Shown one piece after another: positions 295-415 of a DNA stretch of 38,762 bases (position 1 is the first letter of the stretch; each line of letters begins with the position of its first letter). The stretch lies in assembly GCA_005885035.1 (NCBI GenBank), contig VAXZ01000115.1:1-38762 (forward strand), in the 5' to 3' direction. The position numbers and the translations under genes were made by a program. The stretch comes from Actinomycetota bacterium. GTDB lineage: Bacteria; Actinomycetota; UBA4738; HRBIN12. The notes under the pieces were generated by a model. That model worked only from the letters and a program-made list of their open reading frames with translations. It ran no database searches and was not told where the DNA came from.

Positions 295-324
295 AAGAGA
301 AAGGCCGCCTGCGCGGCGGCCCTT
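295..324 (-). terminator. Intrinsic terminator/attenuator hairpin in cysH leader
   Basis: Minus strand AAGG GCCGCC-GCGCA-GGCGGCC TTTCTCTT: 7-bp GC-only stem (321-315 / 309-303), 5-nt loop, followed by T-rich tract; 38 nt before cysH ATG. Confidence 0.7.
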
Positions 325-346
325 GAGGTCGATTGCGAGCGAGGAG

Positions 347-415
347 CTACCGCACGGGGTGGCCGGCGCGCAGCGGCGCCGTCGCGGTACAACAGCACAG
401 GCGACTGGGGATCAT
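347..415 (-). CDS. Putative poly-cysteine leader peptide (uORF), MIPSRLCCCTATAPLRAGHPVR*
   Basis: 22-codon ORF with three consecutive Cys codons (TGC TGT TGT), between a predicted promoter and the terminator hairpin upstream of cysH. Confidence 0.6.
   Translation of the reverse strand: MIPSRLCCCTATAPLRAGHPVR

Follow-up and report, generated by a model that had tools for sequence, protein, structure and literature searches.

Cysteine-rich upstream ORFs have been described in mycobacteria 5' of cysA2 and nirA (PMC4633059), and cysteine-dependent attenuation has been reported for M. smegmatis (Canestrari et al., 2020, in the parts of PMC13236596 and PMC9031893 that cite it). As far as the literature found shows, mycobacteria are also the only organisms in which cysteine-responsive leaders have been tested experimentally. 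Among known kinds, the Ms5788A Cys leaders (NF042933), found in mycobacteria and streptomycetes, come nearest to the leader described here; that family, together with NF042934 (cis_reg_atten), shares with it a short ORF whose conserved basic N-terminal core is followed by Cys codons. Short ORFs with consecutive Cys codons 5' of sulfur genes were likewise described by Seliverstov et al. (2005; PMC1262725), who name acnes and B. longum; no conserved terminator is found there and Rho was proposed, whereas in the present family a terminator stands at cysH, at most sulfite-reductase and at about half of the rhodanese leaders. Two further kinds bear comparison. Attenuators of the trp/his type also combine codons for the pathway's amino acid with a subsequent intrinsic terminator and room for alternative pairing, and TnaC-like cis arrest peptides also carry conserved residues over ~18 positions before the stall site.

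How does the present locus compare? Our window, that is, the whole stretch of 38,762 nucleotides that was analysed, holds a leader unit in front of a truncated cysH gene, with the following features.

516-488, minus strand: promoter by direct reading, with -35 TTGACG at 516-511, a 17-nt spacer and -10 TAGCCT at 493-488
486-475, no strand assigned: inverted repeat TTGCACCTGCAA, candidate operator at the predicted transcription start
470-464, minus strand: probable Shine-Dalgarno sequence GAGGGAG of the leader ORF, purine-rich, here at a long spacing of ~12 nt
451-347, minus strand: leader-peptide ORF MIRTRTVGQVGAMIPSRLCCCTATAPLRAGHPVR with its stop codon, 34 codons, 45 homologous ORFs
397-389, minus strand: putative regulatory Cys codons 19-21, TGC TGT TGT, by direct reading
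324-300, minus strand: terminator hairpin AAGGGCCGCC-GCGCA-GGCGGCCTTT, folding into a 10-bp stem
299-295, minus strand: T-rich tail CTCTT 3' of the hairpin, by direct reading, identical in the congeneric genomes G001 and G002
257-3, minus strand: 5' part of cysH (APS/PAPS reductase), ATG at 257, truncated by the contig end

Ahead of the unit, an adenylate-cyclase-domain gene has its end at 524, and the Shine-Dalgarno sequence of cysH lies between the hairpin tail and the cysH ATG. The cysH fragment matches NCBIfam PRK02090 at 1e-9; the intact copy in G002 exceeds the cut-offs of NF002537, TIGR02055 and TIGR00434, which identifies it clearly as an APS/PAPS reductase. In both congeneric genomes the whole leader unit also stands 5' of cysH, and the actinobacterial-type promoter TTGACG-17-TAGCCT is conserved, as are the hairpin, the core of the peptide and its CCC codons. 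Conservation of the unit in these genomes, the promoter at 516-488 and the inverted repeat at 486-475 are additions to the first-pass annotation. DNA 5' of the promoter is unrelated among the genomes (the end of a dapA-like gene in one congener, unrelated DNA in the other), which places the start of the conserved block at about the promoter. A generic sigma-70 scan did not pick up the cysH-leader promoter, since TAGCCT matches TATAAT at only 3/6 positions; a similar pattern, TTGAC...TANNNT, is found at most leaders of the sulfite-reductase (SiR) type. From the predicted start points, the 5' UTR at cysH measures ~30 nt (predicted -10 end at 488, start codon at 451), and the TusA-type leaders start ~12 nt past the -10 and are nearly leaderless; most leaders that have a 5' UTR carry a purine-rich stretch 5' of the start codon. 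Rfam returns just two tRNAs in the window, and a known RNA family at the leader was therefore rejected.

The ORF had originally been read as the 22-codon frame MIPSRLCCCTATAPLRAGHPVR at 415-347. As an ORF it is real, with Cys codons TGC-TGT-TGT at 397-389, but that reading began at the internal Met13. A start at 415 was rejected, the segment from 451 being conserved at 45/45 loci, where the codon at position 451 is ATG, GTG, TTG or CTG and most of residues 2-12 are conserved; the in-frame ATG at 451, giving 34 codons, is by this comparison the most likely leader start. A profile built from nine leaders yielded 45 credible ORFs, and the peptide core [MVL][IV]RTRxxGxVxxMIPxRxC correspondingly has 45 occurrences, spread over 20/27 genomes analysed from the class (8/8 of those of good quality) and in 0/371 other Actinomycetota. 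A 32-row profile matched 20/398 Actinomycetota genomes at E<=1e-4, all within the class; one weaker match (G000:C80:3100-3159, E = 0.008), inside a 467-aa open frame, was treated as false. No described family in NCBIfam, Pfam or Rfam matches the present leader, and on these comparisons it is a distinct, previously unnamed, class-wide family.

Substantiating a coding function is the pattern of substitution. At codons 3, 4, 5, 8, 10, 15 and 17, identity between genomes is 0.90/0.99/0.42 at codon positions 1/2/3, and Arg5 alone is written with six different codons across the leaders. Synonymous sites thus vary freely, which argues for selection at the level of the peptide and led us to reject an RNA-level cause for the conserved core. 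Residues T4, R5, G8, V10, M13, P15, R17 and C19 are invariant, and the part C-terminal to the Cys codons is unconserved. By this comparative measure, the leader ORF is a real coding ORF that is selected as a peptide. Statistics from the window itself are modest: no other ORF of <=60 codons in it has three Cys codons in a row (mean 0.13 in shuffled windows), and a search of 1.2 kb gave one terminator-like site where 0.4 would be expected. A 7-bp GC hairpin does arise easily in DNA of 69% GC, and one might suppose that ORF and hairpin are chance features of a GC-rich 5' region in which the promoter operator is the sole control. However, with 45 homologous ORFs, a protein-coding substitution pattern and 0/371 occurrences in other genomes of the phylum, a chance origin of the ORF is refuted and this explanation can for practical purposes be set aside; we regard the comparative evidence as decisive for the leader being real.

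The genes that follow the leaders are mainly those of sulfur metabolism: sulfite reductase in 7 cases, cysH in 3, a two-domain rhodanese in 15, TusA followed by a DsrE-like protein in 16, a DsrE-like locus in 1, DUF3303 in 2 and beta-carbonic anhydrase in 1. In genera of the family other than this one, cysH lies inside an operon that also has sulfite reductase and a small zinc-ribbon-like ORF, and the leader stands 5' of sulfite reductase. The genome of the window has three leaders, at cysH, at rhodanese (C4) and at TusA/DsrE (C35). Three leaders, L068 (G026:C79), L058 (G021:C276) and L063 (G020:C14), stand 5' of a beta-carbonic anhydrase or DUF3303 gene; their membership in the same leader family suggests that these two proteins are tied to sulfur or cysteine metabolism. 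With a selected ORF, conserved Cys codons and mainly sulfur-gene targets, the initial proposal of a poly-Cys leader acting as a cysteine-responsive attenuator, as in mycobacteria, appears well supported by the comparative data.

The weight given to the Cys triplet has to be shifted, though. While Cys19 is invariant (45/45), CC occurs in 36/45 and CCC in a minority of the leaders, four of which (two of sulfite reductase, two of rhodanese) have Cys19 alone with no Cys at 20 or 21, and conservation is higher in the residues that precede the triplet than in the triplet itself. Classical trp-type attenuation predicts no conserved leader peptide, and in this respect the present family, with its conserved peptide, departs from the trp/his type. 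The codons themselves carry a second signal: Cys codons 20 and 21 are TGT in 44/46 cases, against 5/92 at the other leader Cys codons, where TGC takes 87/92 (Fisher 7e-28, a value that overstates independence in sequences related by descent, although the contrast lies within the same molecules). TGT accounts for 16/302 Cys codons in identified genes of the class. Peptide-level conservation across 19 residues and the capacity of Cys clusters for metal binding would also suit a small peptide acting in trans, for instance as a metal- or thiol-binding Cys peptide, whose siting near sulfur genes would reflect mere co-transcription. We consider this very unlikely, as a TGT choice confined to Cys20/21 calls for a reason at the level of codons, that is, of decoding, the C-terminal half is unconserved, and a genome may have as many as three copies, every one of them in cis to an operon of its own.

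The same rare codon recurs in the Ms5788A kind. In Streptomyces-like genomes, the rhodanese leader MKRQADLTKRRAVDLCRVAAMLCRxx is recognised by NCBIfam as an Ms5788A Cys-rich leader (44 and 50 bits against NF042933, cut-off 45); it precedes an orthologous cysA2-type rhodanese gene, as do 15 of the leaders described here, and it ends its Cys codons with TGT in 24/24 cases. At these loci (L149-L178) the first (DLC) Cys codon is TGC in 23/24, a pattern unmentioned in the literature found. In sequence, the two families differ: the Ms5788A core TKRRAVDLCRVA..LC is unrelated to RTRxxGxVxxMIPxRxC, and at an hhalign profile probability of 1% homology was rejected. Neither NF042933 nor NF042934 matched the present peptides (two members, E<=10), and NF042933 matches 25/398 Actinomycetota genomes, 0 in the present class, with no overlap in genomes with the present leaders. 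They differ also in architecture, in that some of the present leaders have an intrinsic terminator and those of cysH and SiR are not leaderless. As two leader families without sequence relationship both place a rare codon where sensing would occur, we infer that the sensed quantity is decoding speed.

What follows the ORF is less uniform than the ORF itself. The first-pass annotation had pointed to a 7-bp GC-only hairpin with a T-rich tail 5' of cysH, and both are present at 324-295, ahead of the ATG at 257, the GC-only core being formed, by direct reading, by 321-315/309-303; the T tail at cysH is short and C-interrupted. Taking as a terminator any hairpin of >=7 bp with >=3 T in the tail, we find one 3' of 16/45 leaders, namely cysH 3/3, sulfite reductase 6/7, rhodanese 7/15 and TusA 0/16. 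These 16 hairpins have 14 distinct sequences, and their inner seven pairs can always form. The view that a clear terminator implies a trp-like mode thus holds for the cysH and most SiR leaders, where the hairpin is conserved, but it does not extend to the family: absence at the TusA leaders and at about half of the rhodanese leaders means that the terminator cannot be the general mechanism. All 16 terminator-bearing leaders have at least 11 codons between codon 20 and the stop, compared with 2 to 16 where there is no terminator, and the two hairpins that lack a T tail both follow short-tailed leaders. Read as an association among related loci, a tail of at least 11 codons would be the room needed for a trp-like decision between an early stall and finished translation.

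An alternative antiterminator helix, which the first-pass annotation had proposed to look for, did not emerge above chance: over 13 non-redundant loci, the summed pairing between the stop-codon region and the 5' arm of the terminator was 204.5 against 192.4 +/- 9.6 for shuffled sequences (p = 0.107). An antiterminator in the ORF tail or around the stop, to which single GCGGCC motifs seemed to point, is not significantly supported by this result, and compared with trp/his-type attenuators such a helix is only hypothetical here. Nor is a stable global leader structure supported, the ensemble fold of the leader being no more stable than shuffles (z = 0.4).

As many leaders have no terminator, an attenuation acting on translation comes into consideration, in which a stall on the Cys codons would open a structure hiding the downstream ribosome-binding site and the hairpin would be secondary. 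Such a mode is reported for the M. smegmatis Cys leaders (Canestrari et al., 2020, again in the citing parts of PMC13236596 and PMC9031893), and at cysH a short fold of 345-255 pairs the Shine-Dalgarno sequence with UCCUCG just past the leader stop. However, masking the footprint of a stalled ribosome at the 45 loci leaves mean Shine-Dalgarno accessibility unchanged (cysH 0.28 to 0.25, TusA 0.24 to 0.27, rhodanese 0.41 to 0.44), so that sequestration by the Cys-codon region has no systematic effect in folding, and a T-tailed hairpin is conserved at cysH. Translational attenuation is in our estimate improbable, if worth keeping in sight. Less probable still is a Rho-dependent mode, in which Rho would be recruited to an untranslated C-rich stretch past the leader stop whenever no stalled ribosome shields it. 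Seliverstov et al. (2005; PMC1262725) suggested Rho for the cys leaders of mycobacteria, and the gap from stop to Shine-Dalgarno sequence in the TusA leaders is indeed 51% C and 20% G, but the bias is weaker in the cysH gap (43% C, 28% G), which contains the conserved intrinsic terminator. A Rho mode may operate at the TusA and short-tailed rhodanese leaders; at the cysH locus, control is likely transcriptional.

For the segment 451-295 we therefore favour, and hold to be probable, the reading of a cis-acting cysteine sensor in the cysH 5' leader that combines stalling, read-through, nascent-chain tuning and an operator layer. Transcription would start near 480, and a ribosome would translate the 34-codon leader. 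If cysteinyl-tRNA is scarce, the ribosome would stall at the Cys codons, a stall that rare UGU at 20-21 would sensitise, and RNA polymerase would pass the hairpin at 324-295 into cysH; if cysteine is plentiful, the ribosome would complete the leader and the hairpin would end transcription. Inferred in this scheme are a response to cysteine, which way control runs and the route by which a stall blocks termination. The conserved nascent chain RTR..G.V..MIP.R.C would probably promote or tune the stall in the exit tunnel. The likeness to TnaC ends at its ligand-dependent arrest, which is without support here, the sensed event being probably the decoding of Cys-tRNA. A farther-reading version, which we put forward as a possibility somewhat short of even, takes the leader to be a cysteine-tuned ribosome-arrest peptide with varied outputs (intrinsic terminator, Rho, translation) that controls a class-wide sulfur regulon atop a Fur-family operator. 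As part of this joint reading, and no less tentatively, RTRxxGxVxxMIPxRxC would hold the ribosome and decoding of the next UGU would be the rate-limiting sensor.

The operator layer would add control of initiation at TTGCACCTGCAA, probably bound by a Fur-family repressor. The pattern TTGCASSTGCAA has 59 sites in 17 genomes of the family, versus 7 for the reversed control pattern; sites stand at 475-486 in the window and, in G000, at C110:11971-11982, C69:15647, C35:48527 and C4:42203. Leaders account for 23 of the 59; another 13 are no more than 90 nt 5' of one orthologous Fur-family gene, which is present in 16 genomes of the family, and 12 are 5' of a gene for a JAMM-domain peptidase. This gene adjoins, in the genome of the window, a ThiF-family gene, a locus that resembles the CysO/Mec route of cysteine synthesis. 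The position of the operator floats, from the -35/-10 spacer to the start point or right up to the leader ATG, and its central CC/GG occurs in both orientations, which suits an operator bound by protein better than an RNA element. Because the operator precedes its own gene, following the logic of autoregulation, the Fur-family protein is probably the regulator, and leaders, Fur-family gene and JAMM-peptidase/ThiF locus together form a candidate sulfur regulon under an autoregulated Fur-family repressor. At two further loci, L113 (G007:C29) and L121 (G003:C172), the final A of the operator (TTGCACCTGCAATG) is also the first base of a single-domain rhodanese gene, which is apparently nearly leaderless.

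Short Cys-containing ORFs were also seen 5' of cysH elsewhere. A distinct conserved one, (M/V)TATLLTRNRALDHGWVV[ST]CACPWARRSCRVT, lies ~130-280 nt 5' of a cysH match at L016 and L019, in another actinobacterial genus. In a further actinobacterial family, the very short ORFs at L018 (MSGSSARRCSVRC) and L015 (MSARMRCSA) have their Cys codons at the end or close to it and are possibly independent Cys leaders.

What would the leader family mean for sulfur assimilation in these bacteria? The shared operator and the Fur-family gene provide a candidate master regulator of the pathway. The most interesting point of the family is the conserved nascent peptide, whose conservation raises the question of whether the nascent chain, in addition to the codons, has a part in amino-acid attenuators. 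Elsewhere among actinobacteria, in a separate class, an unrelated leader precedes the same orthologous genes and has the same rare UGU at the sensing position; two unrelated leaders that share genes and codon suggest that ribosome-based cysteine sensing may be a general solution in the phylum.
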